Source: Castanea sativa (Eukaryota > Streptophyta > Magnoliopsida > Fagales > Fagaceae). Taken from it: DNA of 64,000 nt. The stretch lies in assembly GCF_040712315.1 (NCBI RefSeq), contig NC_134017.1:23726322-23790321 (forward strand). Direction: 5' to 3'. Below the pieces are notes generated by a model that did not search any database, had not been told where the DNA came from, and saw only the letters and a list, made by a program, of their open reading frames with translations. The position numbers and the translations under genes are program-made. Of this stretch, positions 8,717 to 53,005 are shown in pieces; positions within the stretch are counted from its first letter, which is position 1, and each line of letters opens with the position of its first letter.

Positions 8717-8720
8717 GGTG

Positions 8721-14159: not shown

Positions 14160-14170
14160 CTTTGATACCA
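14160..14170 (-). other. Element A primer-binding site
   Basis: The reverse strand reads TGGTATCAAAG two bases from the 5' LTR, a tRNA-Met-type copia primer site with one change. Confidence 0.82.
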
Positions 14171-14172
14171 CT

Positions 14173-25845: not shown

Positions 25846-26367
25846 AAATAAACAAGATATAAGCTATGAAGCATAACCTGATCATACAAGAACAGTAATT
25901 ACACTAGTAAACGATCATTTAACTAGTAAACGATCAAAACATGAATGGACTACAATGATCATTTAACTAGTAAATGATCATCCGGACACGCAATGCAATT
26001 AAGTGCAAAGCAAGAATCAATTGCATGTCCAAAACACTCAACCAATGCAAAATACCAAAGTATTTGCATTAAGGATACACAATCCAACAAGGGCACAAGA
26101 GTGTGGTACTCAAGATAAACTATAAGTACAAAAAAAATGCTACAAAGCAATGAGATAAACACAAAATACTGAATTTAAATCAAAGTACTTAAAGCTTTAA
26201 AAGAAAGCAATGTAAAAGAAAAGAGTTATTGACTATGGCATAAGCAAATAAAATACTAAACCACAAAAAAATAACCAAAAGTCTAAGTCTCTATGTTTCT
26301 CCCCCTCAAAATGTGCTACTCCCCCTCAAAATGTTCTCCTCCTTTTTTACCAAAATGGCCAAAGGAG
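25846..26367 (-). other. Element D 3' non-coding part with PPT-like repeats
   Basis: Contains two copies of 'ctccccctcaaaatgt' (26299-26335; purine-rich on the reverse strand) right after the ORF3 stop, and a small repeat of 'taactagtaaacgatca' near 25900-25980. Confidence 0.6.
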
Positions 26368-27473
26368 CTAGAACTGATCAGATTTGGAGTCGGATCCATG
26401 AGCTATTGACATATCCTCAATCTGAGATGATAGGGCAGTGATTTAACCTTGGAGATAAGCAAATTGCCCCGCAGTATGCTGCACATGAGACTTAAGCATG
26501 CCATATATCTGATCAACTATGGTAAGAAGGTGATCAAGACGATTGAATCCTCATGAAGGTGCTGAAGAAGATGGTTGTGCTGAAGGTTCCAGGGTAGAGG
26601 CGAAGCAATCAATCTCATCATCTGTATCTCCACCTTCATCTTGAGCAGCAGCTCTTGGAATTTGAGAAGTACCTGTCTTTGATCCTTTGATGTGAGCTAT
26701 GCTTCAAATCACTGTGTGACCACCAATAGGATAATCCCTTTGCACAATAGTAAGTCTGCTTGGAACTTTCAACTTTTTTTTGCAATGAGACCCATAATGA
26801 TAGTAAGGAACGACATGGTTATCCTTGAGTTTCTTTTGGAGATGCTCTTGGTCAGCAGATGATAGATATGTCCACATATATCAATCTTTTTATGTGTGAA
26901 GAGATTGTGAAAAAAGATGGTCCTCGGCTTGGACAATGTTGTCAAGTTAGTGACCGAGTACAAGTTGTGGATCATGATATAAGCCAATGTCCTCATCTCC
27001 ACAACAAAAGAAATGGTGTTCATTGACCTCTTGTTTAGTGTACCACTAAGCAGTTTTACCATGTCCTCAATAGAATCCAAGCGATCATCGTATTGCATGA
27101 CAATCGGCTGAGAAGGAGGACGAACTTCAAGGAACTCTTGAATTGAATCCCTTGTGATGATGAACTCTTTATAATGCACCCAACAACTTATGTTATCTTC
27201 TTCCACTATGGCATTAGCGAATAATTCCTTTATGAGTTCACCGTACACATTTCCACTTGGATTCAATAGCTTTGTCCAAGTTCTTTCCTTGAAAATCTCA
27301 GGAATGACAGTATTCTTGAGAGTCTCCATTCGAACAACCCTTTCCATAATGATTGTTCCGCTCTTGAAAAAATCATTGTAGGCCATGTTTACCTCAATGG
27401 AACGAAAATTTGTCGAGTCAGTTCGAGCACGCTTTGAGGATTTCTAGATAATAGCATGCTTGGTGAAAGGCAT
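26368..27473 (-). pseudogene. Element D ORF3: plant-transposon-protein-like, nearly full length
   Basis: ATG at 27473 lies immediately after an acceptor-like TTTTGCAG. A stop follows soon (near 27445), then a 205-residue open part (27386-26769): IFKERTWTKLLNPSGNVYGE, LIKELFANAIVEEDNISCWV, EFLEVRPPSQPIVMQYDDRL, MNTISFVVEMRTLAYIMIHN, LFTHKKIDICGHIYHLLTKS. A frameshift in an 8-T run (26772-26779) moves the rest to another frame: QRDYPIG, an acidic linker, a coiled-coil tail and DSKSDQF-stop at 26368. I recognise this as the 'putative plant transposon protein' family (PF20167, unverified). Biochemical role unknown. Confidence 0.8.
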
Positions 27474-28261: not shown

Positions 28262-28590
28262 CAAAAATATGTCACATATGGTACTTAAAAATTGAAAACA
28301 TGTGTTTTTTGCGGGTTAGACAGTCGGGAGATTAGTCGTGAGACACATAGAGGCTTTCACGAGAAGTTCTTAGTAGCGACACAGTTATGAGACACTCACG
28401 AAAGTTTCTGTGTAAACTTGAAAAATTCCAGTTTTTGCCTAAAAGCATTTCATAAGTAGAGTTTAGTTGCAAAATACTCGCGAGACAATAGCGAGACCCT
28501 TTGGATGAAAATGTGACTATTTGATTTCCCTTAAGCACATTCCGCAAGTAGCTGTAAGTCACGAGCTGCTTGCGAAAACGCCTCTGAACC
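28262..28590 (-). promoter_or_regulatory. Element D internal palindrome cluster before ORF3
   Basis: 28310-28590 holds many LTR-like cores ('tcgtgagacac', 'actcgcgagacaat', 'gcgagaccctt', 'cacgaaagtttc'). Its TATA-like site is weak (reverse strand TTTTTAAGTACC, about 28283-28294). Inferred promoter for ORF3. Confidence 0.5.
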
Positions 28591-29818
28591 AGTTTTTTGA
28601 AGAAAACACAAAAATGCATTTTGAAACCAAAAAAAAAAAAAAAAAAAACTTAAAACACAAAAGTATAAAAACACTCTAAAAAACGTATAAAAATACTCAA
28701 AAATCATTTTGGTTTTAATTGGCAAGAAATTGAGTATACACATCACATTTGATCATGTACAATCACGTAAATGAAATAAGCATTCATTGAACAAAGTCTT
28801 GTGCGTTGTGTGTGAGTATCAAATGTGGTATAGTCCATAGTCTAGAGTGAAGTTTCAATGATCAATTCAATCAAGTCATACACAATTAGTACTAAGTCAA
28901 GTGGACTATCTCAATTATAGAAATGAACATATATGATCTCCCACAAGAATGATTACATAACTTTGAAACTTTTCATTTGGCTCCATTACAAAACATGACA
29001 TATGATCATTTTTGAACAAAGTACATCTCATTTTGAGATCGATGCCTAAAATTTTGATATTTCAACTTTGTAAGTGAGTAAGCCTTTGGCTTTTTGAGGC
29101 ACCATACATTTCAATACAAGTCACTTTCCCATTTTCCTAGTCAAATACTAGTATGTGTGACGGCTTTTGCAGCTTAATATCTCTTTTCAAGATTTGACAT
29201 TTGATGAGTTCTTTAAGCAAAAACATAAAAAACGTGGGAAAAGATATAGGCACAAGTCTATGCATGTATCAAGATCAACAAGACTATTGACTAATTATTC
29301 ATGACAAGCTTAAAGATCGATTTACAACTATCACACACAGATTTCAAGATTTTTCCCACAAAGATAGATGTGCATACAAAACAAACTAAGCTCATAAATG
29401 CATTACGCCATTAGTACAAAATTACTAGGCTAAACTCACATGTGATATACACAACACAAGCGATCAAACTTTTTAAAGATTTTTCAATTTTTATGAGTTT
29501 TTGAAACTTCTCAACACACTCAAGAAAATAACACGAAAAGTAAGATCAACAAAAACAAATAACAAAAGCAGCTAGCAAAAGAAACATACTATGAATCAGA
29601 AGCAATGACATAAAAATGTTTTGCATAACATGATGCATGAACCTATGACCCTAAACATGAAAGAATTGAAACATGGACATAGGAGATAAATCATGCATGG
29701 GTACCCTTCCTCACCAACACTTTTCGAGTGTTTTGGGTGAAAGCCTTAGATGGAGGTGCAGGACCAACATAGCTTTCCAACCTCGGAGTGAAGCTAGCAA
29801 GGCATAGAGATATGTTTT
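28591..29818 (-). other. Element D spacer between gag and the ORF3 promoter
   Basis: AT-rich non-coding sequence; poly-A near 28629-28648. This is where pol would be in an autonomous element; no pol motif is present. Confidence 0.7.
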
Positions 29819-31617
29819 TCAGCATTTCCATGACGTCTCCAATGAGATGTCCTTCATTTTCTCCCTGGGAGTTCCGTTTGGTTTCTTCTTTGAAATTTCT
29901 TGGTCAAGCATCAAATCAGATTTCTTAAGTGAATGTTTCTTGAAACAGTTGGGTCTTGTATGCCCTTGATCGCCACAATGATGACACACATGCTTCACTT
30001 GAGGCTCCCTCTGATTTTTGGGTAATGACTTCCCTGTACCTTTTGGTCTTACACCAATAGTTCTTTTCTCAGTAGTAGGGGTCTCAGTCTCAGTCACCAC
30101 TTCTTTAAGTTTCTCAACATTCTTGGCTGATACGAACCTTACTTCCTTCTTTGGTTCGCTGTTGGAGCTTCCTTCTCCAGTATAGCCCAAATCGGTCTTG
30201 TCATGTGAAGATTTTTGTGACGACAGCACACTATCAAGTTTCTTGGTGGAGATACGCTCAACCTTGACATTGGCTTGGATTATCTCAAGCTCTAGAAAAT
30301 TGATCTTAGAGTAAGCTTCAACTAGCTCTCCCTTGAGTCCTTCTACTTCACATTTTGCTTCCTTGAGTTGCACAAGAGTACACTTATGCTCCTCTTCAAT
30401 TTTCTTCATCTTTCTCACAACATGGTTTGCAACCTTGGCATATTTTCCACAGTCTTCTAGAAAAGAATCATATGCTTCTTGAAGATTGCTCTCTCCTTCA
30501 GTTTGGCACACATCTTCGTCTTCCAATTCTTCAACTTCCTCACCTTCTGAATGCTCACCAAGTTCATTCACCAAGTTGCTCAAATCATCCTTAGATTCAG
30601 TGGAGGTAATTACCATGAAAGCCCTATAATTCCCATCACTGTCACACTCTTCTTTCAAGTCTGAATTTGAGCTTTCAGAGTTGCCAAGAGTAATGGCAAA
30701 CACCTTGCCCTTCCCTCTCAAGTAGTTATGACATTCTTTCTTAATGTGACCATGGTCGTTGCATTCAAAGCACACAACTGCTTGGGAGGATTGAGAGTCC
30801 TTCCCATTTTTTTTCTTGAACTCCTTTCTACCACCTTTAGATGATGAGAACTTTCCTTTGCCAAAGGACTTTCCACTGTTCTTCCTCTTCAGAAATTTTT
30901 GGAAGTTCTTTGCAAGGAATGCTACTTCTTTCTCTACATCATCTTCTTCGGAAGAATCGTCTATCCTCTTATTGATGGTTTTGAGTGCAAGAGATTTGCC
31001 TGGCTTGTGAGAAGGTAGTCCAAGTTCATATGTTTGGAGAGATCCAATTAACTCTTGAATCTTAATCTCATCCAAATCTTTGCTTTCTTCTATAGCAGTA
31101 ACCTTCGCACGATAACTCTCTAGTAAGGACCTCAAGATCTTTCTCAACACCTTAGCATCCTCAATCTTTTCGACGAGATTAAGCTTGGTAATCATGATTT
31201 CGTTGAGCTTCCCATAGAATGAATCAAATGACTCATCGCCACTTATTTTGAGCTCTTCAAATTGAGTGGTAAGCATTTGAAGTTTTGTGTCCTTGACCTT
31301 CTTGGTACCTTCGTAGGTATTCTCAAGAATCGTCCAAGCTTCCTTAGCGGTCTTCATATGCGATATCCTGTGAAATTCATCAGTAGACACACCACAAAAT
31401 ATAGCGTTAATTGCTTTGCTATTAGTATTTTCCAATGCAAGAGCTGCCTTGTCCCATTCAGGCTTGGCTATTGTGGGTCTAACATACACATTCTAAATGG
31501 AGTCCCATACGGACTCATCTATAGAAGAAAGAAATGCCCTTTATGAACTTTCCAAAAAGCATAGTTGCTCCCATCAAAGAATGGTAGAGCATTGAGAGAT
31601 TGTGACCGATCCATCAT
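29819..31617 (-). pseudogene. gag: Element D gag, almost intact
   Basis: ATG 31617 (MMDRSQSLNALPFFDGSNYA). One frame slip near 31520-31530 and one TAG near 31494 precede a 556-residue open frame (31489-29819). Parts in order: UBN2-type capsid (NAIFCGVSTDEFHRISHMKT, AWTILENTYEGTKKVKDTKL), a lysine-rich patch, zinc knuckle 1 CFECNDHGHIKKEC, a ~190-residue acidic and coiled-coil region (CTLVQLKEAKCEVEGLKGEL), zinc knuckle 2 CHHCGDQGHTRPNC, and a basic tail. It ends in a true stop with no pol fusion. It is the best preserved retroelement gene in the window. Confidence 0.9.
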
Positions 31618-31668: not shown

Positions 31669-31680
31669 GCTCTGATACCA
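31669..31680 (-). other. Element D primer-binding site
   Basis: The reverse strand reads TGGTATCAGAGC, an exact copia primer site, 2 bp from the 5' LTR. Confidence 0.93.
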
Positions 31681-31682
31681 AT

Positions 31683-32503
31683 TAAAAGCTCGAAATTGCG
31701 TTAAAAACACAAGAGCTATTTAGACCCCAAAATAAAAAATTACGGCTCGGTTGATTTTACTTTAACTTAAACTAAGTGCAGAATAGAGTAAATGCGAGCG
31801 AACAAACAAAACAACTACTCTAAGCCATATTCAATAAAGCACATCAGTAAAATGAAAGCTATAATAGTAGGGAAGAGAGATGCAAATACAAGATAACACG
31901 CTGATGTGTTATTGAAGAGGAAATAGAAGAACTAGGCGAAAAACCTCTCCACCGCCCTCCAAGCGGTAAATCGATCCACTCAACAATAAGTTGGTATACA
32001 TGAATAACAAAAAAACCTCGCAATGAATAGTGTGTAGAATTGTGGGTATGACAATCTCACACTCTCAAGGGTTGAGGCTAGGGTTTTCTCTTATGAAAAG
32101 CTCTCTACTCAATAAATGGGTAATGATGGTATATATAGTGAGATTGAGGATGTAGTGGAGCAGATATGACAAAATAGCAGAATAGACTGTTTCGCGGGTA
32201 TCTCGCAAGAAGACTTTACTTGCGAGACCCTCGCAAAAACCAGCTGTTACCATCTGTCATGACTCTTCGCATTCTAGTCATGTGCAGGGCACATGCATCA
32301 TTTCGCAGGATACTTAGTCGCGAGCTACCCACGAGAAAACTTCTGTCTTCACATGCTTGAGTCTTCACACTTTCTCCCTATCACACAACCCTTACAATAA
32401 AATCCCACATATAGTACAGGGTATAAAAGATTGAACAAGATTACAATCAAATTTGGCACGGAATTAAAGCAAACACAAAATAGTTGTAAATCACAACTTT
32501 ACA
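31683..32503 (-). repeat. Element D 5' LTR
   Basis: Starts TAAAAGCTCG (the terminal TG appears mutated to TA) and ends CAACTTTACA. It contains the same palindromes (32191-32342) and a TATATATACC box on the reverse strand (32129-32137). Confidence 0.85.
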
Positions 32504-32508: not shown

Positions 32509-32908
32509 AATACAAAGTCATGAATGTAGATTGCCACTTTGTAAATATGTCTTAACTCTTAAAACATATCAACATGTCAACTAGAAATCTCCATTTCCAT
32601 GATCAAGACAAATCATCTTAGTTGATACGTTATAGTCTTCGCAGATGAAATGCCTAATTTTATCACCAACTACGAACTACAATTCTAAGTTTATAAAGAA
32701 CTTGTGATTTATATCTTCTGTGACTTTCCACATAAATCACATACTATACATCTCATGGACTATATTATAATGTCCCATATTTATGTTACCACTATGATAG
32801 ATTATAATAAAACAACTTTATTAATCACAATATTAAGATATACATCATGTCATACATAATATTGTACATAGCATCATACAATAAGATTTAAGGGCACTAA
32901 TCCTAACA
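32509..32908 (-). repeat. Element C 3' LTR, second part
   Basis: Resumes at 'aatacaaagtcatgaatg' and ends AATCCTAACA. It lacks part of the middle present in the other C-family LTRs (sequence jumps from 'ctttgtaaat' to 'atgtcttaactc'). The reverse strand of the adjoining bases, GGGCAAGTGGGAGAT, is the polypurine tract. Confidence 0.9.
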
Positions 32909-32939
32909 ATCTCCCACTTGCCCTAAAGACTATTGTGCA

Positions 32940-33437
32940 CTAATCTAACTCCCGTTCCCTCCAAATGTGACTCGAAAGTCGTTTGAGGCAAGGCTTTAGT
33001 AAATGGATCTGCTAAATATTTGGAATTTCAATCTTTGCTACCACTACATCTCCATGACTAACAATGTCTCGAATGATGTGGTACTTCTTCTCAATGTGCT
33101 TTCCTTTCTTATGATTCATTGGATCTTTGGATTGTGCAACCGCTCCACTATTGTCGTAAAACAATGTGATAGGAACTTGTTCGATACTCACAACACCAAG
33201 ATCATAAAGGAATTTCTTGAACCAAACAGCTTCCTTTTCCGCTTCACAAGTAGCAACATACTCAGCTTCCATGGTGGAGTCCATAATACAAGATTGCTTA
33301 ACACTTCTCCAACTTATGGCTCCACCTCCCAAGGTGAAAACACATTCTGAAGTGGATTTTTTGAAATCTAGATCCGATTGAAAATCTGAATCTGTATAGC
33401 CAACAGGAATCAAATCCTCACACTGGTAAACAAGCAT
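32940..33437 (-). pseudogene. pol: Element C RNase H
   Basis: A 141-residue open frame (33012-33437): PVGYTDSDFQSDLDFKKSTS, GGGAISWRSVKQSC, STMEAEYVATCEAEKEAVWF, PITLFYDNSGAVAQSKDP, KGKHIEKKYHIIRDIV. A stop at about 33009 separates the last tail. The DSD and E residues of the copia RNase H pattern are retained. Confidence 0.92.
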
Positions 33438-36137: not shown

Positions 36138-37049
36138 TGTTAGGCCATATGTGGTTCAATTGTTAAGAACATATGTCATTATTTTATGTAATTGGCTAAT
36201 CCTTTGACAAAATGCACTTTACTTGTAATTGGGTAAATCTAGAATGTTTTTGATACTTCAAGAAAAAAGCTAAGAAATGCTCTTTATTAAAGCTCGACAA
36301 CTGCATCTATCGAGCTTTAAGAAGTTGTTCCATCCCCGTGGCTCGATAGCTGCTCGACAACACCTCGACACCTCTAGCTGTAGAGATTTAAGAAAAACAG
36401 CTTTTCAATACTGTTTTGATTCTAATCCGTGGACATGTCTTTGAGCCTTCTTTTCTCATAACCCTAGACATATAAAATGATTATTTTAAGGGTCGTCAAA
36501 GTAAGCATAAGTTGCACAAGCATTGAGCAAAGTCTGTTCAAGCAATTTGTAACCGGAGACAAAGTTTGCCCTAGTTCATCTCTTTGTGAAGAAGTTGTTG
36601 TGTCTTTGCACCATAGGGTTTTGTAACCAAGCATCTTCTCATTCTTCATTGTGAGGATGAACTGAAGAACTTTGCAGCCAACATCTTTCTCAAGTTGGTA
36701 ATTAAAGTCGCATATTGGGATCCGCACAATTGGTTAGTCATGTATTGGGAGTCGTGCATTAAAAATGAGAGATTGTCACTACAGAACAAGTTCAATTGAG
36801 TATTGGGGTAAGGGTTCAACTATAGGTTGGTATAAGGTACTGGGATTCCTTTACTTGTAACCGCTTGTTGTGATAATAATGGATTTTTGGGAATGGTGAC
36901 CTTAAAATCACCCTGTGGGGTTTTTTCATTGGAGGTTTTTCCCATTAGTAAACAAATCACCGTGTCAATTTATTTTTCACTATACTTTGGTTTATTGGTG
37001 ATTTTTTTGTGCTACCATCACATGGGGTCAATTCATTTTTGGCCTATCA
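36138..37049 (+). repeat. Element B 5' LTR
   Basis: 912 bp, TGTTAGG...CCTATCA. It lacks two stretches present in the 3' LTR (after 'cttcaagaaa' and before the end). ORFs on the opposite strand (36464-36727) are chance frames. Confidence 0.93.
36287..36477 (+). promoter_or_regulatory. Element B U3: TCGA hairpins plus TATA box
   Basis: Arms TTAAAGCTCGA (36287-36297) and TCGAGCTTTAA (36310-36320) pair perfectly over a 12-nt spacer. More TCGATAG/TCGACA cores follow to about 36390, and a TATA box (CATATAAAAT, 36469-36477) comes ~80 bp later. The 3' LTR keeps the hairpin (about 42068-42101), adds CTCGACA/TGTCGAG, and has TATATAAAAG at 42251. Confidence 0.72.
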
Positions 37050-37065: not shown

Positions 37066-37119
37066 GCACACTCTGATTAAGGTTTAGTCTTTGTGTATAA
37101 TCCATTGACCCCTGTTGTC

Positions 37120-38854
37120 ATAGATAGAGGAAAATCTCTTATTAGCCCTCCTTTATTTGATGGGACTAACTATGCATACTTAAAAATACACATGAGAGCT
37201 TTTTTGAAGTCTCTAGATGGGAAGGTGTGGCAAGCTGTAGAGATTGGCTGGACGAAGCCAAAGGAAGCATCGGCTGATTAGGATGAGGCAAAGATCAAGG
37301 TGGCAAACTTCAACAGCTAGGCATTGAATGCTTTGTTCAGTGCAGTTACAAATGAGGAATTCAAGAAGATATCCTCCATTGAAATTGCAAAGGAAGCATG
37401 GATCATTCTCCAGACAACCTATGAAGGAACTAAGGCTGTCAAGGATTCAAAGCTGCAGCAGCTTACTACAAGCTTCAAAGAGATAAAGATGGAGGAGGAT
37501 GAGTCATTTGATGAGTTCTATGCAAAACTCAAAGACATAGTGAACTCTGCTTTTAATCTTGGAGAAACTATCCCAGAACCCAAGATTGTGAGAAAAGTGC
37601 TCAGATCTCTATCCAAAAGATTTCATGCCAAGATCACCGCAATTGAGGAATCAAAGGATATTGATAAAATTCCTTTGATAGAGCTGGTTGGAAATCTATA
37701 GACCTACGAGTTGGGTTTGTCTAGAATCGAAAAAATGAGTAAGTGTAAGAATATGGCACTAAAGGCCAAGAGCAGTGAGACGAAAGAGTCTTCAGACAAT
37801 GAAGATTCTAAGATGAAGTCCTATATCACCAGGAAATTCAAGAAGTTCATGAAGAATGCTAATGGGAAAGGCTTCAACAAGGACCGTAGGCAATCCAGTT
37901 CTTCTTAGTTCAAGGGTCAAGACAAAGGGAAGATGGATGCAAGGGATGGCGGTCAGTACACTGTTCCTACAGGACCTAAGTGCTTTGGGTGTCAAGGCTT
38001 CGGACACATGAAACAGGAATGCCCAACGTATCTCAAGATGATTGGGAAACGTATGGCACTTGCTGTTACACTAAGTGACACCGAGCCTAAAGATGATTTC
38101 GACAATGAGGATGATGGAATCTTGAATGCCTTCACTGCCACAGTTAATCCTACTGAGGGGATTATTGAAGATGTGGATGAAGAAGAGGAATTGGTGGAAG
38201 CCAAGTTTGAGAAGATGGAGGATCAAGATGACATTCACACAGCCTATGTAAAATTATATAAGGTCTCAGAAAAGCACAAGAAGCTGTATAGGTTGACCAC
38301 CAAGAAGCTTAGTGATGTGGAGCTTGAATGTGAAGAGCTTTCCATAAAGTTTGATGAAGCAAATCAAACTATTGGGGCACTAAGGTTTGAAAATAACTTC
38401 TTGGCTGAGAAGACTAAGCAGCTTGAGGTAGAACTATTCCAAGTCAGAGCTCAGTTAGAAAGGACTTCAAGTGCTAAGCTCGATAAAATGCTTGGCTTTC
38501 AAAATTCTGCTTTAGATTGAACAGGATAAGAAGGAAGTTAAAAACCCTAGGGCTAAGAAGGCTATCTCTCAAAGGCCTAAACAAAAGAAGTAGCATCTTT
38601 GTCATCACTGTGGAGCAGCTGGTCATACTCGACCAAATTGCTATAAATGGTTAGCCACTCAAACTAACAATAACATGTTGGTGTCGGGAAACCAAAATCA
38701 GTTTCCGTCCTCGTTTGCTCCTCTTGGAGATCTTAAAGCCCTCATGTTCCTTCCGAACTTGAATGGTATCAATTCTTCCCCCTCACCGCAGGTTCAAGTG
38801 TATGTTAACAGGAAAGGTTCTTCCAATGTGTGGAAGGAAAAGGGTTCCAAGTGA
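37120..38854 (+). pseudogene. gag: Element B gag, start codon and several codons lost
   Basis: The expected ATG after the leader TTGACCCCTGTTGTC is ATA (37120-37122); elements A and 1 have ATG there. The frame reads SPPLFDGTNYAYLKIHMRAF, then capsid (KEAWIILQTTYEGTKAVKDS), with TAG stops near 37279, 37318, 37699 and 37906. Next come zinc knuckle 1 CFGCQGFGHMKQEC, an acidic and coiled-coil region, a frame change near 38518, zinc knuckle 2 CHHCGAAGHTRPNC and a stop at 38852-38854. Domain order matches D gag. No pol follows. Confidence 0.9.
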
Positions 38855-40004: not shown

Positions 40005-40309
40005 TCTCGATACCTTCTCGACACCTCTCGATACCTGGCTCATTTGTCATTTTTTCAGTTGCATCTGATCGCAATCTCGATAGCTCCTCGATAGCTTCTG
40101 GATCGATCGAGAAACCTCCTGACCTCTCGATAGATTCCGGACAGCTTCTGGATCAATCGAGCTTCTTACTTGTGTCTGATGTTTTGTTCCTCGACACCTC
40201 CTCGATAGCTGCATCTGTCGACGTCTTTTTCTTGACACCTACCTCGACACCTATCTCGAAACCTCTCGACACCTCTATCTGTTAAGATTTACTGAGGTTC
40301 TATATAAAG
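40005..40309 (+). promoter_or_regulatory. Element B internal palindrome cluster and TATA box before ORF3
   Basis: More than fifteen TCGA cores in TCGATAGCT, TCGACACCT and GGATCGATCGAG forms (40005-40283), the same vocabulary as this element's U3, followed by a clear TATA box TATATAAAGG at 40301-40310. About 520 bp separate it from ORF3. Inferred internal promoter. Confidence 0.65.
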
Positions 40310-40443
40310 GTTCTCATACGATTTGGACTTCATTCTCTCGATTTCTCTCGATCTATCCGCACATATTCCTTTGCCAAACACTCTTTTCTCACTCAAACCT
40401 TCAAACCACGTGTTTTTCAGCTTTTCTTGCTTCAAATCACTTG

Positions 40444-40830
40444 GTATGGTTCTTTTTCTTCATAATCTTTTCATGCAATCATATCTAGGTTTTGAGTTTT
40501 TGAAAATTTTTGGGGTTTTTCAAAATTTGTTGAGTTTTTGAGAAATTTTTGGATGGTTTTTGTCTAAATGTGTTTCAAATCTGATGCATTGCATCACATA
40601 AGCATAATAATTGTATTATCATGCATTTAGATGTGTGCATTTTGATTGTGTGCTGGTAGGATTAGATTGGGCGGAGCCCATGATGTCTTTTATATCGCAT
40701 GCCACATGTTCATGCATTTTTCATGCATGCGTTCTTTCCTTTCTATATACTTGCTATAGTTGAATTATGTTGGAACTTTTTTGAGTGTTTCTTTCTTCCC
40801 CCGCTCTTTCTTTTTTACATTAATGCGTCA
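40444..40830 (+). other. Putative 5'UTR intron of ORF3 in element B, acceptor lost
   Basis: Donor CACTTG|GTATGG (GT 40444-40445). Near the end are CATGCATTT, TTCATGCATGCG and a pyrimidine-rich run (about 40787-40816), but the bases before ATG are GCGTCA with no AG, where D has GCAG. The acceptor seems to have been lost by one base. Confidence 0.5.
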
Positions 40831-41877
40831 ATGGCACCAAAACGTAAGTTTGCTCCTATCCAGAACCCTCTGGGTTCTAGGGCCTCTTCATCTTCCGATC
40901 CAACTCCCTCCACTGTTCGGTTCCATGATGAGAAAGCCTAAAAGGACTTCTTGGAGAACTTTTCTAAACGAGGTGTTCATTTGGAACACAAAGTTATCTT
41001 GTCGACTTTTGTTGACACTGACCTTCCTAATGTTATTCACAAATGGGAATGGGAGTCACTGTGTGACGTCCTGGTCACATGTCCTATCGTGCTAATTCAG
41101 GAGTTTTGCTCCAACATGCATGGAACTGATCCTTCAGTACCTCTCTTTCATACTCGCATTTGAGGTATGCGCATTGTCGTCACACTGGAGTTGGTATCCG
41201 ATGTGCTTCGTGTTCTGAGGGTTGCGCATCTTGACTACCCTAGTTGTGAGCATCTACGGACTGTGTCCAAAGACGAGATGATCTCTGCTTTCTGTGAGCG
41301 TCCAGCTAATTAGGGTGAGTATCAATTTACATCATGTCGACCTTTTGCTAAAGGTCCTAGATTCTTGAACATGGTGATGACTTTTGTGTCGTATTCTCTC
41401 TCTCACTACAACTCCATTACAGAGTCTCATTCTCATTTTCTGTTGTCTCTTCTTGAGGATCTATTTATAGACTTTCCTTCACATTTCATCTTTTTTATCA
41501 TAGATGTATATAGGGATACGGCTACCCGTGATAAGCACATATTTCCTTCTACTATCACGCGGTTCTTACACCACTTCTCTGTTCCTTTTCCCTCAGCCGA
41601 CCACTTCTCCTTTATGTGTGCCATTAACTACGCTATCGTTAAATGGAGTGAGGTGCAGTTTTGTGTGAGGCGGTCTGGGTCGACAGCTCCTCCCACTCTT
41701 TCGACTCCTTTTACCTCCGCTCCCTCTTCTTCAGCGGGAGGTGTGACTTTGGATGCGATCATGGTGCAGCTTCAGCGCATGGATGCTCACCTTGATACAC
41801 TTTCTACGGAGTTGTATCAGGTGAACACTTGTGTTGGCCGCATTGCTAGACAGATTGCCAAAGGGGGAGATTGTTAG
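40831..41877 (+). pseudogene. Element B ORF3: plant-transposon-protein-like, three in-frame stops
   Basis: ATG 40831 (MAPKRKFAPIQNPLGSRASS). One frame is kept throughout, with stops at 40939-40941, 41161-41163 and 41311-41313. Segments: HLEHKVILSTFVDTDLPNVI, IVLIQEFCSNMHGTDPSVPL, RFLNMVMTFVSYSLSHYNSI, FIDFPSHFIFFIIDVYRDTA, TRDKHIFPSTITRFLHHFSV. A Ser/Pro/Thr-rich linker and a coiled-coil tail (MDAHLDTLSTELYQVN) follow. The last codons KGGDC-stop are written by the polypurine tract and the first LTR bases. Close relative of the E copy. Function unknown. Confidence 0.8.
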
Positions 41878-42890
41878 GACATATGTGGTTCAATTGTTAA
41901 GAACATATGTCATTATTTTATGTAATTGGCTAATCCTTGGACAAAATATACTTTACTTGTAATTAGGTAGATCTAGAATGTTTTTGATACTTCAAGAAAC
42001 AAGGTTTCAAGATCAAGTGTTAAAGCCATGCAAGTCTGTCCAAGAAACAAGATAAGAAGTGCTCCTCATTAAAGCTCGACAGCTGTATCTATCGAGCTTT
42101 AAGAAGCAGTTCTAGCCCCGTGGCTCAACAGCTGCTTGACAGCAGCTCGACACCTCTAACTGTCGAGATTTAGGAAAAACAGTTTTTCAATACTATTTTT
42201 ATTCTAATCTGTGGACATGTCTTTGAGCCTTCTTTTCTCATAATCCTAGATATATAAAAGGATTATTTTAAAGGCCATCAAAGTAAGCACAAGTTGCATA
42301 AGCATTGAGCAAAGTCTGTTCAAGAAATTTGTAACCGGAGACAAAGTTTGCCCTAGTTCATCTCTTTGTGAAGAAGCTGCTGTGTCTTTGCACCGTAGGG
42401 TTTTGTAACCAAGCATCTTCTCGTTCTTCATTGTGAGGATGAACTGAAGAACTTTGCAGCCAACATCTTTCTCAAGTTGGTAATTGAAGTCACGTACTGG
42501 GATCCGCATAATTGGTTAGTCACGTACTGGTAGCCATGCATTGAAAAGGAGAGATTGTCACTACAAAACAAGTCCAATTGGGTATTGGAGTAAGGGTTCA
42601 ACTATAGGTTGGTAAAAGGTACTGGGATTCCTTTACTTGTAACCGCTTGTTATGATAATAGTGGATTCTCGGGAGTGGTGACCTTAAAATCACCTGGTGG
42701 GGTTTTTGCCTTGGAGGTTTTCCCCATTCGTAAAAAAATCACCGTGTCAATTTATTTTCCTCTGCACTTTAGTTTATTGGTAATTTGTTTGTGCTACCAT
42801 GTGTTTGCATGTTAATTTGATTAATTAATAAACTTGGCTAATTAATCAACTTAATCCATCACAAGGGGTCAATACGTTTTTGGCCTATCA
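41872..42890 (+). repeat. Element B 3' LTR
   Basis: 1,019 bp, TGTTAGGACATATG...TTGGCCTATCA, pairing with 36138-37049. The polypurine tract AAAGGGGGAGAT (41860-41871) adjoins it. Confidence 0.94.
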
Positions 42891-43581: not shown

Positions 43582-44763
43582 GTTCAAATCTGAAAATAAC
43601 AAACATGAATATAATAAGTAAACTGGACATTATCAATTTAGCATATAATATGGAACCTTAATAAAACCATAAAATATTATATTGAAACCCAATCCCATGT
43701 TTAAAATTCCTTGGAAGCAAGTAAATTATAAACACTATGATTGATTGAGAACTATCCTCATTATTAGTGCTATCATGATAACTCTTATCAAACACTAATA
43801 ATATGCCGTTTTTCCTTTAGCCTCTAAGTAATAATGGCATAGCTTCGAAGGAAGGTTAACATTAAACTTAGTCTAGTGTACACCATTGACTGAATTCTAT
43901 GTGAGTCATTAAGTAACTCCACGGTGGCGTGGCCGTTCTTAATTAAAAAACACATATCATCCATCATTAAGAAGTTTGATCTGTAGTACCATGAATTAAA
44001 CACCGTCCAAAGGGAGCAAGGCATATATGCCAAGGCGAGGTGCCTAATCACACTACTATAAACCGACAATGGAGGCCATGAGATCTAACCCTTGTATCTC
44101 TCTCCCACTAAATTTTTTAAATTAAAGGTTTTTAAATATAAAACATGCATAATCTAATTACACACAGCCTTGCACTTTATATATATGAAAACACTTAGAA
44201 ATAGTTCAAAATTCCCTTCAGTGGCATTTTCGTGGGTATCTCATGACTAAGTTCTTCCCGCAAAAATGAATTATAGCAAAAAAAATGAAAACACAAAATT
44301 CAGACAGACTTTTGCGACTGTCTCGTGAGTGTTTCGTGAGTAAAGCTTACCCACAAAAATTTTGCGAAAACATAAAATTCAGATAGAAGCTTTCGTGACT
44401 GTCTCGAGACTATTCCGCAAGTAAAGCTTACCCGCGAAAAACTTGTGTTTTCAGTTTTTCAAAGGGAAGATTTGAAATGTTTTCAACGGTTTTCCATGAA
44501 CAAACAACCACCATATGAACGTGATAGATAAAAATTGATATCAAAACTGAATTCCATTGATGCTAAAGCCTTAAAGATCAATTTAACATTCTTAAATTCA
44601 TATCAAAACAACATCATAACATCAATATATGTTTTTATCAAATCATAGTTTCAACAACCATGCAGAAAACTAAATACATATATAATCTTCTAACATGTTG
44701 AAACTATTATTTCTAGTTCCAAAACTCACAAAACATGTTATACAAATTCGAATTGAAAACCTA
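43582..44763 (-). other. Element C 5' leader, non-coding
   Basis: About 1.2 kb between primer site and gag. It has no convincing ORF and contains a cluster of CG palindromes listed separately. Confidence 0.65.
44219..44450 (-). promoter_or_regulatory. Cluster of CGCGAG/TCTCGTGAG-like cores in the C leader
   Basis: Three diverged units each have a 'tttcgtg(g/a)...tctcgtgag' part and a '(t)taccc(g/a)cgaaaa' part. They resemble the palindromes of element D (TCTCGCG...CGCGAGA, acccgcgagaaaac) although C's LTR is of another family. Function unknown. Confidence 0.45.
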
Positions 44764-44775
44764 GCTCTGATACCA
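44764..44775 (-). other. Element C primer-binding site
   Basis: The reverse strand reads TGGTATCAGAGC, the exact copia tRNA-Met primer site, 2 bp from the 5' LTR. Confidence 0.93.
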
Positions 44776-44777
44776 TT

Positions 44778-46569
44778 TGATGGAAAATACATGTTTCCAT
44801 CACATACAAAACACACGCAGCGGAAAATTAACGGATCTACTTCATTTGCAATTGATAACATGTACTATGTAAATTCAAGAATTCTAGAACAAGAGAGCAT
44901 ACCTTGATGCGGTGAAATTCAAAACAAGAATCAGAAGTACTCGGGAATACTTTTAATCTTCACTCCAAATCCACTCTACGCCCAAGATGTGTGGTCTCTT
45001 AATCAGTTTCAAAGGGAGAATGATAGAGTGTCTCACTCTCACATACACACTATCTCACAATGATGTCTCTCTTTTTCATATATTAAAAATTAGGGTAAAC
45101 TACGTATTTGGTCCCTATCCTATACACCATATTTCAATTTGATCCCTAACCTTTTAATTATGTCAATTTGGTCCCTAACCTTTCTTTACTGTGTCAATTT
45201 AATCCTTACAGTTATCTTTTGGATGAAAATTAATGACATGTCTAATGACTAAAATAAAAAATTAGCTTCTGTTGATGTGATAATAAATTAAAATTTTATT
45301 TTGCCTATTTGCTATGTAAACAATTTTCATCTAATATATAATGATAAAGACTAAATTGACACGACATTAAAAGGTTAAGGACCAAATTGACACAATTGAA
45401 AGGTTAAGGACCAAATTGAAATATGGTGTAAAGGCTAGGGACTAAATATGTAGTTTACCCTAAAAATTATGTATGTTTCTCTCCTCATAACTGATTATCT
45501 AATTGGGCTAGCCTTTTGGGCCTTTCCAATTGGGCTTTAGTGTGTGGCTTGGAGTGGGACCAAAAGGGACCAATAAGACACTAGCTCCAATGGGCCTTGG
45601 GTTTTTCTGTCAACTCTTGACAAGTCCAAAGTTACTATTAACTATATTTAATACCACTATATCAATATAGTTGCACTCTAGGCCTTATTTATATATTATA
45701 TCTCAAGACTTTATTATACATGCAACCTCTTTATAAAATATTCGTATTAATACAAAGTAATGAATGTAGACTGCCACTTTGTAAATTACTACATCTTATC
45801 CTTGAGTACCTAGTTTAATCCTTTGAAGTTATTCAAAATATATTTATGGAATCCAATTTCATAAATATATACTTTAGTAACTTCTTACCAAAGTGGTTAG
45901 GCCTAACTCTCTGAATAACCGATCCATTAAACTTATCTCAAGGGAATATTTTATATCTCCGTTAAGAGACTATGAATTGCATCTTGAGAGTATATGTTCC
46001 AACAACACTAAATGTGGTTGCCCAACATACTGAGATTTTGACCGTTACTTTAGATCTCACTCCTGATATATCAAAGCAACCAACACTTCATGATCAGGTC
46101 CATTATCCTCTCAAGATTAAGAGTTTATGCAAATATAAGTCGTGAGATTTATTATTCAATTGACAGTCGTTTAGAGAATAATAAATCTCACAGCGGTCCA
46201 GTTTAATATGTCTTAACTCTTAAAACATATCAACATATCAACTAGAAATCTCCATTTCCATGATCAAGACAAATCATCTTAGTTGATACGTTATAGTTTT
46301 CGCAGATGAAATGCCTTATTTCATCAACGACTATGAACTACAATTCTGAGTTTACAAAGAACTTGTGATTTATATCTTCTGTGACTTTTCACATAAATCA
46401 CATACTATGCATCTCATGGACTATATGATAATCTCTCATATTCATGTTACCATTATTTTAGATTATAGTAAAACAACTTTATTAATCACAATTTTAAGTC
46501 ACAAATCATGTCATACATAATATTATACATAGCATCATACAATAGGATTTAAGGGCACTAATCCTAACA
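44778..46569 (-). repeat. Element C 5' LTR with MITE inside
   Basis: 1,792 bp including the 370-bp MITE and its 7-bp duplication, so about 1.4 kb of LTR proper, the same size as 62240-63655 and 51601-53000. Confidence 0.92.
45085..45468. mobile_element. 370-bp MITE in the C 5' LTR (TSD AAAAATT)
   Basis: 45092-45461 begins AGGGTAAACTAC and ends GTAGTTTACCCT, perfect terminal inverted repeats; the similarity of the arms continues inward through 'ggtccct', 'catatttcaatttg' and 'ggtcc.taacc'. It is flanked by AAAAATT (45085-45091, 45462-45468). The other C-family LTRs read straight through this site, proving an insertion. No coding capacity. The superfamily is not certain from a 7-bp duplication. 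Confidence 0.88.
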
Positions 46570-46574
46570 ATATA

Positions 46575-47029: not shown

Positions 47030-47575
47030 TGTTAGGACATATGTGGATATTGTTAAAGACATATGTTATGTAAATTGGCTAACCCTTTGAAAAAATGCAC
47101 TTTACTTGTAATTGGATAGATCTAGGATGAGTTTATTACTTCAAGGAACAAAAGTTCAAGTTTAGTATTGAAGCCATGCAAATCTGTCCAAGAAATAAGT
47201 GAAGAAGTGTTGTTCATTAAAGCTTGACAAATCCATATCCATCGAGATTAAATGCTGATGCTTGACAGAAGCTTGACAGAAGCTATATCTATCGAGAATT
47301 ATGAAATTCAAATTTCCAGATCTAATTTCATGCATATCCATATGTATTTGTGTAGGGTTTCTTTTCTCATATAAGGATTATTTTAAGGGCCATCAAAGGT
47401 GATGCAAAGTGATGTAACTCAATGAAAATTGATTGTGCACGCAAATTATGACTAAAGACAGAATTTGCCCCAGTTCATCATATTCCTTGTAGAAGCTGCT
47501 GCATATTTGCGCTAAGGGTTTTGTAACCAAGGAGCTTCTTAATCTTCATCGTTGGATGAAGATTAAGCATAGCAT
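47030..47575 (+). repeat. Element E 5' LTR, truncated
   Basis: TGTTAGGACATATGTGG...; aligns to 50817-51320 and to B's LTRs until about 'cttcatcgttggatgaag', where it switches to internal spacer. Confidence 0.8.
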
Positions 47576-48242
47576 AACCATCTCACCACTAAAGCCTGCC
47601 AATCATGAATAACATTTGTGTGCTTCAGCATAGCAAAATTATGATGTTTAAGCTTAACATAATTGGGTATTTCTTCTCTCTCTCTCTCTTATATGCCCAT
47701 GCATGATATGCTTAAAAGAAAAAAAATATATGCAAAGAATAACGAAAGCAAAAAAAAAATCAAAATGCTTTTAAACATGGTTACAAGCGTGTTTCTAGGA
47801 GATGTGGGAGTTATAGAACATATCTCAAAGGTGATAGTCCCCATCAAGCAGTTATGATTGTGTGTGAGTTAAATTGATTTTTTCATATCTCAAATCATCA
47901 TAACATGAGACACTTATGCACTCTTGCGATGTTTTCATATACAACATGTAAATTCTTTGCTACTTTTGATACATGTGCAAGCTCAATGTGATTTGGCCAT
48001 CACAAGGGATACATGTGTTAATGTATGATCACTAAATGGTCTTGACTTATTTTCGAAATATAAAATTGGTTAGATTTGTTTTGTGTGTGTGTGTGTGTGT
48101 GTTTTGGATCTATGAGTGCTTTGCATTTTTCTTGTTAAAAGATATTTTTGAGAGCTTAAAATGTTGTTTGGATCTTTGGTTGAGTAGCTTGCTTGATTGC
48201 ATTCATTTCTATGTTTTTCCTTTCTTTGAAAAACTGTTTCTA
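47576..48242 (+). other. Element E spacer
   Basis: Homologous to B 39290-40004 ('accatctcaccact', 'aattgggtatttcttctctc', 'aggagatgtgggagttatag'). The ORFs at 47663-47857 and 48036-48368 are chance frames in this spacer. Confidence 0.7.
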
Positions 48243-48552
48243 TCAAGCTCGATAGCTTCTCGACAGATCTTAACAGCTAGCTATCTATCGAGACGCTTGG
48301 ACTTCTTTTCTCGACAAATCTTAATGCATTTTCAATCCATCGAAGCTTTTTGGAATTTGTCTCGATAGCTTCTTGATAGATTTTTGATACATCGAGAAAG
48401 GTTTTTCCTAGCCGATAGCTTTTCGATAGCTATTCGATCCATCAAGGTACTTTTGCCATCGACAGATCCTCGATAGTTGTATCTGTCAAGAATTTATGCT
48501 TGACAGTTCGATAGATGCTCGATCCATCGACATGCATTTTCCTTAAATAGCT
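48243..48552 (+). promoter_or_regulatory. Element E internal palindrome cluster and TATA-like site before ORF3
   Basis: About fourteen TCGA cores (TCGATAGCTTCTCGACAG, CATCGACAGATCCTCGATAG and similar) up to 48535, then TATA-like CCTTAAATAGC at 48541-48551. Equivalent to 40005-40309 of B. Confidence 0.58.
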
Positions 48553-48687: not shown

Positions 48688-49084
48688 GTATGCTTCTCTA
48701 ATCTCTCTTTCTTCATGCATTTCACACATTTAGACCTAGGTTTTGGGTTTTCTTGAAATTTTAGGGGTTTTTGAAAATCTTTGAGTATTTTGTGAAATTT
48801 TTGGGTTGGGTTGGGTTTTGCTTATATGATGTTATGTGCCCATGCATTGCATTACATTTGCATTTTCACAATATTTCATGCATTATAGATGTGTATTTAT
48901 AAGTTGGAACCTTATGTGCTGTTAGGATTGGATTGGGTTGAACCCATGATGCAATTTTCTTTGTACGTCACATGCTCATATATTGTTCATGCATACATAC
49001 ATTTTCATTTCCATATTTGGTACTCTATGTTGATGGTGCTTTTCTGTTTTTTTGTCTCTCTCTCTCTCTCTTTCTCTCTCTCAG
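48688..49084 (+). other. Putative 5'UTR intron of ORF3 in element E
   Basis: Donor CCTCTG|GTATGC (GT 48688-48689); acceptor after a long (TC)n tract, TCTCTCTCAG (AG 49083-49084), 11 nt before the ORF3 ATG. Length 397 nt. CATGCATT, TTCATGCATT and TTCATGCATACATAC lie inside, as in B. Confidence 0.6.
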
Positions 49085-49095: not shown

Positions 49096-50249
49096 ATGGC
49101 AGCCAAGTGCAAAACTACTCCATCCTGGAACCCTCTTCATTCTGGGGCATTATGTTCTGATTCTACTCCTCTTCATATCAGGTTCCGTGATGAGAAGGCC
49201 CGTTAGGACTTCTCGAAGAACTTCTCCAAACATGGCATTCATTCGGAATGCCACTTGATTCTATTGGATTTTTCTGATACTACTCTACCCACTGTCATTC
49301 ACAGTCGGGGTTGGAGATCTCTATGTGAGATACTTGTGATCTATCCCTCTGTGATCATATAGGAGTTTACTCCAATATGCACGGTTTTGATTCTTTTGTG
49401 CCTTGGTTTATTACTCATGTTCGAGGTACATGTATAGTAGTCATTTCGAAGCTTATCTCTGATGTGCTACATGTTCTGAGGTTATTGCATCCTCATTACC
49501 CTAGATGTGTATGTCTGACGACTGTGTCCAAAGACAAACTTCTGTCTCTCTATTGTGAGACACCTCTTCATGGGGTGATCGCCAAAAGGTCCGAGGTTCC
49601 TGAATATGGTGATGACATTTGTTCTTCATCCCTTGTCTCACTACAACTCCATTACCAACCCTCATGCTCGCCTTTTGCTTTCCCTCATTGAGGACCTTAC
49701 TATAGACTTCCCTTCTCACTTCATTCTTTCCCTTATGGATGTCTATAGGGATACGGCGACCCGTGATAAGCTTATCTTTCCTTCTACTATCACGTGGATC
49801 ATTCACCATGCCTTTGTCTCCTATTCAGAGTTTACTCATTTTACCATCATGGGTGCCATCAGTATAGTGTCTATTCAACGAAGTGAGGCCAACTTTGACC
49901 AAATCGGCCACGAACCAAGACGGCAACTCCTCCAGCCCATTCCACTCCATCCACCTCTACTTCTTCTTCTTCTTCTTTTGTGGGTGGTGTGATGCTTGAG
50001 CACATGGATGTTCGCCTTGATACACTCACTGCTGAGTTGTATCAGGTTAACACTTATGTTAGTCGTATCGCACAATGACATGCTCGCATGAGTGGCTTCA
50101 CCGCTTCTCTATCTCCTTCTATATCTCCATAGGCTTCAAAGGACAAGGACAATAATGATGGCTACGATGATGATGATGATGATGATGATGATGATAAAAA
50201 TGAGGATGCTAGCTCTTCTGATGATGAGGAGATGACGGCTTCTCAATGA
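49096..50249 (+). pseudogene. Element E ORF3, broken
   Basis: ATG 49096 (MAAKCKTTPSWNPLHSGALC) with an early TAG (about 49204), frame changes near 49360, 49590 and 49910. Segments match B ORF3: SNMHGFDSFVPWFITHVRGT, FLNMVMTFVLHPLSHYNSIT, FPSHFILSLMDVYRDTATRD, LTAELYQVNTYVSRIAQ. The tail continues past B's end into an aspartate run encoded by (GAT)n (50166-50194) and a SSSDDEEMTASQ stop near 50249. The extra acidic tail shows the full-length C-terminus B has lost. Confidence 0.75.
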
Positions 50250-50816: not shown

Positions 50817-51595
50817 TGTCAGGACATATGTAAAACTTGTTAGAACATATGTCATATAGACTTGGCTAATTCTTTAACAAAATGCACTTTACTTGTAATT
50901 GGGTAGATCTAGGATTTGTTTAATACTTCAAGGAACAAGAGTTCAAGTCTAGTACTGAAGTCATGCAAATCTGTCTAAGAATCAAGTGAAAAAGTGTTAT
51001 TTATTAGAGCTCGACAAATGTATCTATCAAGATTTAATATGTGATCTTGATAGCTCTTGACAGAAGTTGTATCTATTGAGAAGTACGAAAATCAGATTTC
51101 CAAATCTATTTTTCATGCATATCTAAGCTGTTTGTGTAGGGTTTCTTTTCTCACAACCTTAGACATATATAAGGATTATTTTAAGGGCCGTCCAAGGTGA
51201 TGCAACTTGATGCAAAGTGATTATGCATTTGTGATTATTTTAAGTGTCGTCCAATTTGCCCTAGATCATCTTTCTCTTGAAGAAGCTACTGCGTTTGTGC
51301 GCCAAGGGTTTTGTAACCAAGGAGCTTCTTGATCTTCATCACCTGGATAAACTAAAGAACTTTGTAGCCAACATCTTTCTCAAGTTGGTGTGTTAGTCAC
51401 GTACTGAGATCCATGCATCAATTGGTTAGTCACGTACTTGGAGATATGCATTGAAAGGATAGATTATAACTAAATTGCAAATCCAATTGGGTATTGAGGT
51501 AAGGGTTCAACTATAGGTTAGTATTGGGTACTGGGATTCCTTTTACTTGTAACCGCTTATTTTAATAATATTGGATTCTTGGGATTGGTGACCTT

Positions 51596-53005
51596 AAATT
51601 TGTAAGTATTAGTGCCTTTAAATCCTATTGTATGATGCTATGTATGACATTATGTATGATTTAATGTTGTATGAATAAAGTTGTTTTATTATAATCTAAA
51701 ATAATGGTAACATGAATATTGAACATTATCATATAATCCCTGAGATGCATAGTATGTGATTTATGTGAAAAGTCATAGAAAATATAAATCACAAGTTCTT
51801 TGTAAACTTAGAATTGTAGTTCATAGTCGGTGATGAAATTGGGTATTTCATCTGCGAACACTATAACATATCAACTAAGATAATTTGTCTTGATCATGGA
51901 AATGGAGATTTCTAGTTACTATGTTAATATGTTTTAAGAGTTAAGACATATTGAACTGGACTACTGTGAGATTTATTATTCTCCTAACGACTGTCAAATG
52001 AATAATAAATCTCACGACTTATATTTACATGAACTCTTAATCCTGAGAGAATAATAGACCTAATCATGACGTATAGGTTACTTTGATATATCAGGAGTGA
52101 GATCTAAAGTTACGATCAAAACCTTAGTATGTTGGGCAACCACATTTAGTGTTGATGGAACATATATTTTCAAGATGGAAATCATAATCTCTTAATAGAA
52201 ATACAAAATTTTACCTTGAGATAGGTTTAACGGGTTTGTTATTCAGAATATTAGGTCTAATTTCTTTAGTAAATAGTTACTAGAATATATATTTATGAAA
52301 TTGGATTTCATAAATATATGAAAGGATTAAACTGGGCACTCAAGGATTATGACGTAGTAGTTTACAAAGTGGCAGTCTATAAAGTGGCAGTCTACATTTA
52401 TGACTTTGTGTTACTACGTATATTTTATGAAGGGGTTGCATGTACAAGAAAGTCTTGGGATATAATTTATTAACAAGGACTAGGGTGCAATTATATTTAT
52501 ATAGTGGTATTAAATATAATTAATGGTAACTTTGGACTTGTCAAGAGTTGACAAAAAGCCTAAGGCCCATTGGAGCTAGTGTCTTATTGGTCCATTTTGG
52601 TCCCACTCCAAGCCACACACTTAAGCCCAATTAGAAAGGCCCAAAAGGCCAGCCTAATTAGATAATCAGTTATAAGGAAATAAACATACAGAATTTTATA
52701 GAGCGAGACATCATTCTGAAATGGTGTATGTGTGAGTGTAAGTCACTCTCACTAATTCTTCCTTGGAAAACTGATTGAGAGACCACACTTCTTGGGCGTT
52801 AGTGGAATTGGAGTGAAGATTGAAAGTGCTCCCAAGTGCTTTTGATCTTCGTTTTTGAAATTCACCACATCAAAGTACACTCTCTTGGTCTTAAATTCTG
52901 AAACTTACATAGTACATGTTAACATTTATGAATGAAGTAGATCTGTTATTTTTCCGCTGCGTATGTTTTGTATGCGATACAAACATGTATTTATCCATCA
53001 AAATT
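51596..53005 (+). mobile_element. Solo LTR of the C family (TSD AAATT)
   Basis: 51601-53000, TGTAAGTATTAGTGCC...TTATCCATCA, a C-family LTR in plus orientation with AAATT on both sides (51596-51600, 53001-53005) and no internal region. Produced by recombination between two LTRs of an earlier full insertion. Confidence 0.93.

Follow-up and report, generated by a model that had tools for sequence, protein, structure and literature searches.

Palindromic boxes have been described in the LTRs of Sireviruses and additionally upstream of their third gene (ENV), for which an internal promoter was discussed and supported, although it was not conclusively identified (Bousios et al. 2010; PMC2829016, in excerpt). 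The same excerpts give a polypurine tract (PPT), AGGGGGAG, located 10 bases before the 3′ LTR as the Sirevirus pattern. They also report CGG-CCG in 12 out of 13 Sirevirus motifs (Tnd-1 being the exception) and LTR boxes in four Sireviruses without ENV, so a third gene in cis (ORF3 in the elements studied here) is not needed for LTR boxes.

The preliminary description of our locus was aware of no described plant retrotransposon built in this way. That impression has to be given up in light of the Sirevirus boxes in the LTR and before ENV (PMC2829016) and of the promoter of the Grande accessory gene (PMC7264820), both taken from parts of these papers.

Results

Four ORF3-carrying elements in the window

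The analysed stretch of DNA (the window) covers 64 kb of a 716-Mb genome (G000:C5:23726322-23790321). It holds four ORF3-carrying LTR elements, of which A and D lie on the minus strand and B and E on the plus strand. The two LTRs are 91.1% identical in B (881 columns), 90.3% in A, and 89.4% in D; at 89.4-91.1% identity, these three are therefore old, decayed copies. As for coding content, B and D have gag and no visible pol, A has pol and no gag, and E has neither.

Element B starts with a 5′ LTR (36138-37049) that contains one 22-base dyad, CTCGAYA-N8-TRTCRAG, at 36293-36314. It is followed by a gag remnant (37081-38851), broken into pieces, in which two CCHC knuckles were recognised by eye; no pol was seen between this remnant and ORF3. 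An internal cluster of CTCGATA/CTCGACA palindromes (40005-40291), with one 22-base dyad at 40201, precedes a TATATAA box (40301-40307), a pyrimidine-rich leader predicted to be an untranslated exon 1 (40308-40443), and a predicted leader intron (40444-40823). ORF3 itself (Transposase_32, PF20167; 40831-41877) carries three in-frame stops, so the B copy is a relic. The PPT AGGGGGAG (41862-41869) lies within the end of ORF3 and starts 10 bases before the 3′ LTR (41872-42890), which has dyads at 42075-42096 and 42146-42167 and a TATA at 42251. Compared with L009-L028, the interval from ORF3 to the 3′ LTR is about 650-700 bases shorter in B (window 41850-41872): the distance from the ORF3 start to the LTR is 1676-1746 bases in 14 out of 17 B-family copies and about 1032 in window B.

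In element E, a truncated 5′ LTR (47030-47560) has half-sites at offsets 18 and 29, not 15. The internal palindrome cluster (48245-48534, dyad at 48469) is followed by a frameshifted ORF3 remnant (49096-50100, end approximate) and by a 3′ LTR (50817-51598) with a decayed dyad at 51010, cut by another repeat at about 51598. The E LTR motifs are strongly decayed.

Element D comprises, on the minus strand, part of a 5′ LTR (31680-32490), a copia-type gag with a 557-aa open stretch (29822-31492; Pfam Retrotran_gag_2), and no pol that we could see. Its internal cluster is of the CTCGCGA/CGCGAA type (28300-28600), the acceptor TTTGCAG abuts the ATG of ORF3 (Transposase_32; 26370-27473, end approximate), and the shared part of the 3′ LTR (24791-25870) has CGCGAG dyads ahead of TATATATA. 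Parts of the repeat on either side of D (24195-24791 and 32544-33250) recur at 44775-46571, 51597-53000 (minus), and 62241-64000, and D was probably inserted into that repeat.

Element A, also on the minus strand, has a 5′ LTR (14166-14966) and a pol remnant (10793-13940) with gag_pre-integrase, an integrase below the cut-off, and RVT_2; no gag was seen in it. A cluster of the TCGATCGATCGA type (9480-9640) precedes the ORF3 remnant (7628-8717, 3′ end approximate), and in the 3′ LTR (6279-7105) a TCGATCGATCGA pair lies ahead of TATAAAAA. Elsewhere in the window, at 18738-20134, a 466-base unit is repeated three times head-to-tail (300-base cores 90-93% identical), flanked by Retrotrans_gag and RVT_3 reading frames.

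Judged by sequence, the four are best described as decayed Sirevirus-type Ty1/copia elements, where "Sirevirus-type" names a layout and not a proven clade. The order gag_pre-integrase and integrase before RVT_2 in A and the Retrotran_gag_2 domain in D are of copia type. All seven AGGGGGAG octamers of the 64 kb (three in A, two in D, one each in B and E) lie past ORF3 (in B, within its last bases) and ahead of the 3′ LTR of these elements. The spacing of exactly 10 bases was found in A (PPT start at 7115, LTR at 7105) and B (41862, LTR at 41872) and was not found in D and E. A palindromic motif is present, as in Sireviruses, both in the LTR before the TATA and before the third gene, with class III loci (see below) as the exception (0/4). 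The motif cores are TCGA, CGATCG, or CGCG, and a CGG-CCG core is absent; we did not use this as an exclusion, because the Sirevirus paper itself gives an exception (PMC2829016, in excerpt).

CG palindromes are shared between the internal cluster and the LTR

Nowhere in the window is TCGA denser than in the cluster of B, with 13 TCGA and 16 CG in one 250-base bin. This cluster contains 15 TCGA against 4.4 ± 1.6 in 500 dinucleotide shuffles (maximum 9) and 10 CTCGAYA words against 0.2 (maximum 3). In the E cluster, 14 TCGA were counted against 4.0 in shuffles (maximum 9). The A cluster has 8 GATCGA against 1.0 (maximum 5), but its 9 TCGA (4.6 expected) only equal the shuffle maximum of 9. The D cluster is weaker, with 2 CTCGCGA against 0.0 and a shuffle maximum of 2. 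A cluster of CG-centred palindromes before ORF3, as first noticed, is thus present in all four elements, and it stands out least from shuffles in D.

The CG 6-mers of each U3 were then scored over 1089 non-LTR 300-base windows. Those of A and B peak at their own internal cluster (scores 39 and 49). The E words score 42 at the B cluster and 40 at the E cluster, and the D words reach 26 at their own cluster, second to 29 at a D-like orphan cluster at 44201. The earlier proposal that each cluster uses the core of its own U3 therefore stands for A and B; in D and E the core is shared, with the own cluster in second place. The 22-base dyad, always with an offset of 15, occurs in the internal clusters of B and E, in both B LTRs, and, at the 3′ end, in the LTR of E. 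Palindromes that lie before ORF3 are also found in the LTR upstream of its TATA in motif classes I, II, and IV (defined below).

The orphan cluster (44201-44440; CTCGTGAG, CCCGCGAAA) contains two 75-base copies, 81% identical, and no ORF3 follows it. The complement of TGGTATCAGAGC at about 44762, close to this cluster, may be part of another repeat.

Outside the CG words, no excess of sharing with the own LTR was observed: non-CG 9-mers gave 71.5 for the own 3′ region and 75.4 for those of others. By blastn, matches between the B internal region and the B LTRs are short (27-38 bases), and the internal regions of A, D, and E matched no LTR at E 1e-3. Since sharing is confined to CG words, it is the motif that is common and not the LTR itself. 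Of the suggestion that the internal region copies the control sequence of the LTR, we retain the CG motif and drop the rest.

As single strands, the clusters of A (9480-9660) and E (48240-48540) fold much better than shuffles, and that of D does not (z-scores: A -4.8, E -3.8, B -2.5, D -0.1). The A and E clusters are a possible source of small RNAs.

TATA, leader, and intron sites before ORF3

GT donors were located by eye in all four elements (B 40444, D 28152, A 9330, E 48688), and AG acceptors precede ORF3 in A, D, and E (in E at 49083-49084). By eye, the only canonical TATA is that of B; its place is taken by TTAAATAG in E, and A and D have no clear TATA. At the acceptor, the window copy of B reads TTAA. 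The order originally put forward (cluster, TATA or TATA-like box, leader, GT, intron, ORF3) thus holds for the clusters and the GT in all four elements, but the TATA is canonical in B alone and the B acceptor has been lost.

The B-family alignment (17 rows, namely 16 loci and window B, with L022 excluded for its shortened spacing) shows a TATAWAW box in 13/17 sequences and, read off the aligned rows, the GT in 17/17 and an NAG before ORF3 in 14/17. Mean pairwise identity is 0.78 in the TATA, 0.85 in the cluster, 0.80 in the leader, and 0.88 in the intron. The TATA box is therefore no better kept than its surroundings, which speaks against the promoter idea.

Among 12 loci of classes I, II, and IV with a found ATG, 10 have a G/GTAWG donor, located 330-560 bases past the start of the cluster peak. 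Of 23 loci, 6 have a YAG placed exactly at the first in-frame ATG (5 if L058, with its ATG in intron-like sequence, is set aside), and 14 have one no more than 7 bases away. An AAG/GTATGT or AAG/GTATGTT-like donor is combined with an acceptor directly at the ATG in four class II loci (L033, L043, L045, L054), as in D. In the 10 class I/II loci that have a donor, the stretch from the cluster to the donor contains no TATAWA. The recurrence of these sites suggests a leader intron before ORF3.

Relatives across the genome

The B internal region gave at least 47 matches in the genome (40 of 1486 candidates scored). In 17 of 20 copies taken from the best B-family matches, the cluster, ORF3, and the 3′ LTR follow in this order, and L011, L013, and L024 lack it.

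In a PF20167 search of the genome, 150 of 3562 candidates were scored and 30 were made into loci. At least 9 CG per 250 bases were present upstream of ORF3 in 20 of the 30, against 30% of 1200-base stretches drawn at random from the window. Motif classes were assigned by words picked after inspection of the sequences, at least 2 hits being required, and wD, L033, and L046 have just 2 upstream words each. Outside a tandem trio, 21 of 27 loci were recognised (class I 3, II 12, III 5, IV 1), and the remaining 6 have no recognised cluster class.

In the class III loci (L035, L037, L039, L041, L042), inverted repeats of the form AACTCGATT...AATCGAGTT recur ahead of ORF3. An LTR counterpart of this motif within 3.9 kb was found in 0 of the 4 loci tested (all except L037), and AGGGGGAG is absent from the examined stretch in 3 of these 4.

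The trio (L029, L030, L031; G000:C11:8.316-8.340 Mb) consists of tandem, intact Transposase_32 genes of 443-459 aa with pairwise dN/dS of 0.51-0.67. With a maximum of 2 motif words they show no clear cluster, AGGGGGAG is missing from the stretch, and they are possibly domesticated ORF3 genes.

The motif before ORF3 varies with the LTR and with the ORF3 protein

Internal and LTR-side motifs were compared in 22 elements, that is, the four of the window and 18 of the 30 loci, whose 3′ side was retrieved; these 18 were picked with a bias to CG-rich ends, which for minus-strand loci is the LTR side. Own upstream/downstream pairing exceeded all 20000 permutations at k=5, 6, and 7. In these 22 elements, the LTR-side and internal sequences of one copy are thus more alike than those of different copies, a comparison that the preliminary description had proposed. 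At k=6, the own LTR ranks first in 4/22 and within the first three in 9/22; it is seldom first because whole classes have a common motif.

Motif classes on the ORF3 side and the LTR side agree in 14 of 22 elements (permutation mean 7.46; 23 of 100000 permutations as high) and, without the window elements, in 11 of 18 (mean 7.2; 915 of 100000). Disagreement was observed for L033, L035, L039, L041, L042, L049, L052, and wE.

On the tree of the ORF3 domain (33 rows, 24 labelled and 9 unlabelled), motif class changes 3 times, the minimum for four classes, and 0 of 200 shuffles were as low; these 3 changes are few independent events, and the permutations leave relatedness in. wE gave no row, and L030 and L031 are unlabelled despite 2 class II words each. 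Evolution of the internal cluster in step with the LTR, as proposed earlier, is supported by the class agreement (14/22), with shared motifs in classes I, II, and IV and none in class III (0/4). These comparisons of sequence support an LTR-like internal control region that appears to track the LTR motif between families.

The ORF3 protein

One search returned 3452 relatives of ORF3. Named relatives are from Quercus suber and Lithocarpus, which makes an oak-family host probable. With the PF20167 profile, D ORF3 scores 56.6 bits over a 224-aa stop-free piece (cut-off 45), the B fragment scores 20.8 bits (below the cut-off), and the A fragment gives no match. All 65 members of the alignment of B- and D-type homologues match PF20167 at E up to 1. 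Among viral contigs, three stretches fitted a pattern, and none was confirmed as a relative.

The maximal 19-residue hydropathy is 1.06-1.38 in five proteins out of seven; the two others, P0263 and P0213, reach higher values, but before the usual MSPT start. By this measure, the ORF3 core has no membrane helix in the 7 proteins. The N-terminus is basic, and three B-type proteins have an acidic tail. Confidence in the two structural models is low overall (pLDDT 46.8 and 54.0), but a long helix at the C-terminal end exceeds a pLDDT of 90 and looks like a coiled coil. No DNA-binding fold emerged, and a PDB profile search gave one chance-level match (E 0.44).

Variation in ORF3 is modestly higher at third codon positions (0.147) than at the other two (0.130 and 0.113; transversion ratio 1.40). 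The phases of the intron, used as a control, differ too (0.110, 0.124, 0.122), so these values point only weakly to past selection for the protein. A search of the genome for DUF1985 yielded 64 candidates and 1 match below the cut-off, PMD-like by eye. In a weak test with a single sequence, ORF3 showed no profile similarity to this DUF1985/PMD-like protein.

Discussion

On the sequence evidence, we consider it rather likely that genomic RNA and ORF3 are under shared cis-control by one regulator, possibly ORF3 itself. In classes I, II, and IV, family-specific CG palindromes lie at two places, as a dense cluster before ORF3 and in the LTR upstream of the TATA. The internal cluster would be a putative promoter or enhancer giving rise to a short spliced mRNA (leader exon, intron, ORF3), as the recurrent splice sites suggest. 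A single sequence-specific regulator would then drive both promoters, the LTR for full-length RNA and the internal one for ORF3 mRNA. More speculatively, this regulator may be encoded by the element, most likely as an ORF3 dimer sitting on the spaced dyads, and ORF3 might activate transcription or counteract silencing and, in doing so, also stimulate its own promoter.

The shared-control reading draws on clusters beyond chance, the sharing with the own LTR, the constant dyad offset of 15, and the 17/20 copies in order. It also draws on the class agreement (14/22), the fit to the ORF3 tree with 3 changes, and the recurrence of donors and acceptors. It is weakened by the lack of TATAWA in 10 class I/II loci, the own LTR ranking first in 4/22, the result for class III (0/4), the 6/27 loci without a recognised cluster, and the LTR boxes of ENV-less Sireviruses.

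Alternatively, the palindromes could be bound by host factors or targeted by host silencing or small RNAs, both sites being host-read promoters and ORF3 having another role. We regard this as a serious though somewhat doubtful option. Sireviruses that have LTR boxes and no third gene (PMC2829016, in excerpt) fit it, and so does the folding of the A, E, and B palindromes as RNA, but the D palindromes fold no better than shuffles. Moreover, a fixed host factor does not easily account for a motif that shifts between element lineages within a single host genome and goes with the ORF3 clade.

It is also conceivable, if unlikely, that ORF3 expression is env-style, by 5′ LTR transcripts spliced into the acceptor that precedes it, so that the cluster would be an enhancer or insulator and not a promoter. 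Many loci have an acceptor at or close to the first in-frame ATG, which would suit such a mechanism, as would the absence of a TATA from cluster to donor in the 10 class I/II loci and the spliced env cited for Bagy2 (PMC7264820, in part). Nevertheless, an acceptor-only model has no need of the recurrent donor (10/12 loci; GT in 17/17 B-family sequences), and the B-family TATA is at its expected place in 13/17.

We find it very unlikely that the common CG words reflect relatedness or mutational bias only, with no function. Related elements do have common classes, the permutations keep relatedness in, and a density of 9 CG per 250 bases is reached in 30% of random 1200-base stretches (against 20/30 loci). 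Methylated repeats are expected to lose CpG quickly, yet dyads of the same pattern persist in both places at the same spacing, and the cluster keeps a fixed place before ORF3 in 17/20 B-family copies. Finally, an origin of the internal cluster as a remnant or transposed copy of LTR DNA, to which the 27-38-base stretches common to the B internal region and LTRs might point, is hardly credible and was rejected, given the null blastn results in A, D, and E and the non-CG 9-mers without own-LTR excess (71.5 vs 75.4).

Shared control by one regulator can be taken a step further by analogy with known systems, to a proposal that we put forward tentatively and hold to be rather unlikely as it stands. 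ORF3 would be a lineage-specific DNA-binding activator or anti-silencing factor acting on the CG dyads of the LTR and of its own internal promoter, with sites and protein changing together. Such VANC- or Tas-like feedback would be the role of the Sirevirus "env". The third gene of Sirevirus-type elements is often called env-like, and a clade of its protein is now linked to a motif in both control regions. If the proposal is true, plant copia elements possess a loop of activation or anti-silencing comparable to the one known in VANDAL transposons, which could help explain the spread of families in large plant genomes.

Comparison with known systems

The likeness to foamy viruses and to VANDAL is one of mode. 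Foamy viruses have a second, internal promoter for a regulatory gene, and the encoded Tas activates both it and the LTR, as described in the parts of the literature we draw on; they are animal retroviruses, and we claim no homologue. VANC is an element-encoded, sequence-specific protein that co-evolves with the repeated non-coding motifs of its own family, but VANDAL is a DNA transposon, its proteins contain DUF1985/DUF287, and its motifs lie in one orientation in tandem repeats (Hosaka et al. 2017; PMC5735166, in part).

Among plant LTR elements, two further cases are comparable. Grande and Athila belong to Ty3/gypsy, and gene23 of Grande is antisense to gag-pol; ORF3, in contrast, is sense and resides in copia-type elements. 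Maize Grande gene23 resembles ORF3 as an accessory gene between pol and the 3′ LTR with its own promoter, and it encodes a nuclear protein (Gomez-Orte et al. 2013, as cited in PMC7264820 and PMC11728184). Athila has PF20167 in a sense extra ORF at the 3′ end, and the excerpts of PMC11728184 report no promoter cluster before it.

The env-containing Sireviruses are similar in their element-specific palindromes before the LTR TATA and directly before the third gene, and in the PPT spacing (PMC2829016, in excerpt). Two of their motifs have cores as found here, namely CGGTCGACCG of Vitis and ACAATCGATTGT of Tnd-1. The elements of the window differ from the Sireviruses in those excerpts in that they have no CGG-CCG, have donor and acceptor sites of a leader intron, have a TATA in one family, and, in B and D, lack pol. 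Unlike an env-like protein, the third-gene product here has no transmembrane helix. In the portion of the literature on Sirevirus internal promoters that we consulted, we found no report of co-variation between motif and ORF3.

Thus, motif boxes in the LTR and before the third gene are already known, and so is the idea of an internal promoter (PMC2829016, in excerpt). Our analysis adds TCGA/CGCG cores without CGG-CCG, leader intron sites, the co-variation of motif and ORF3, and an ORF3 (Transposase_32) without a membrane helix.
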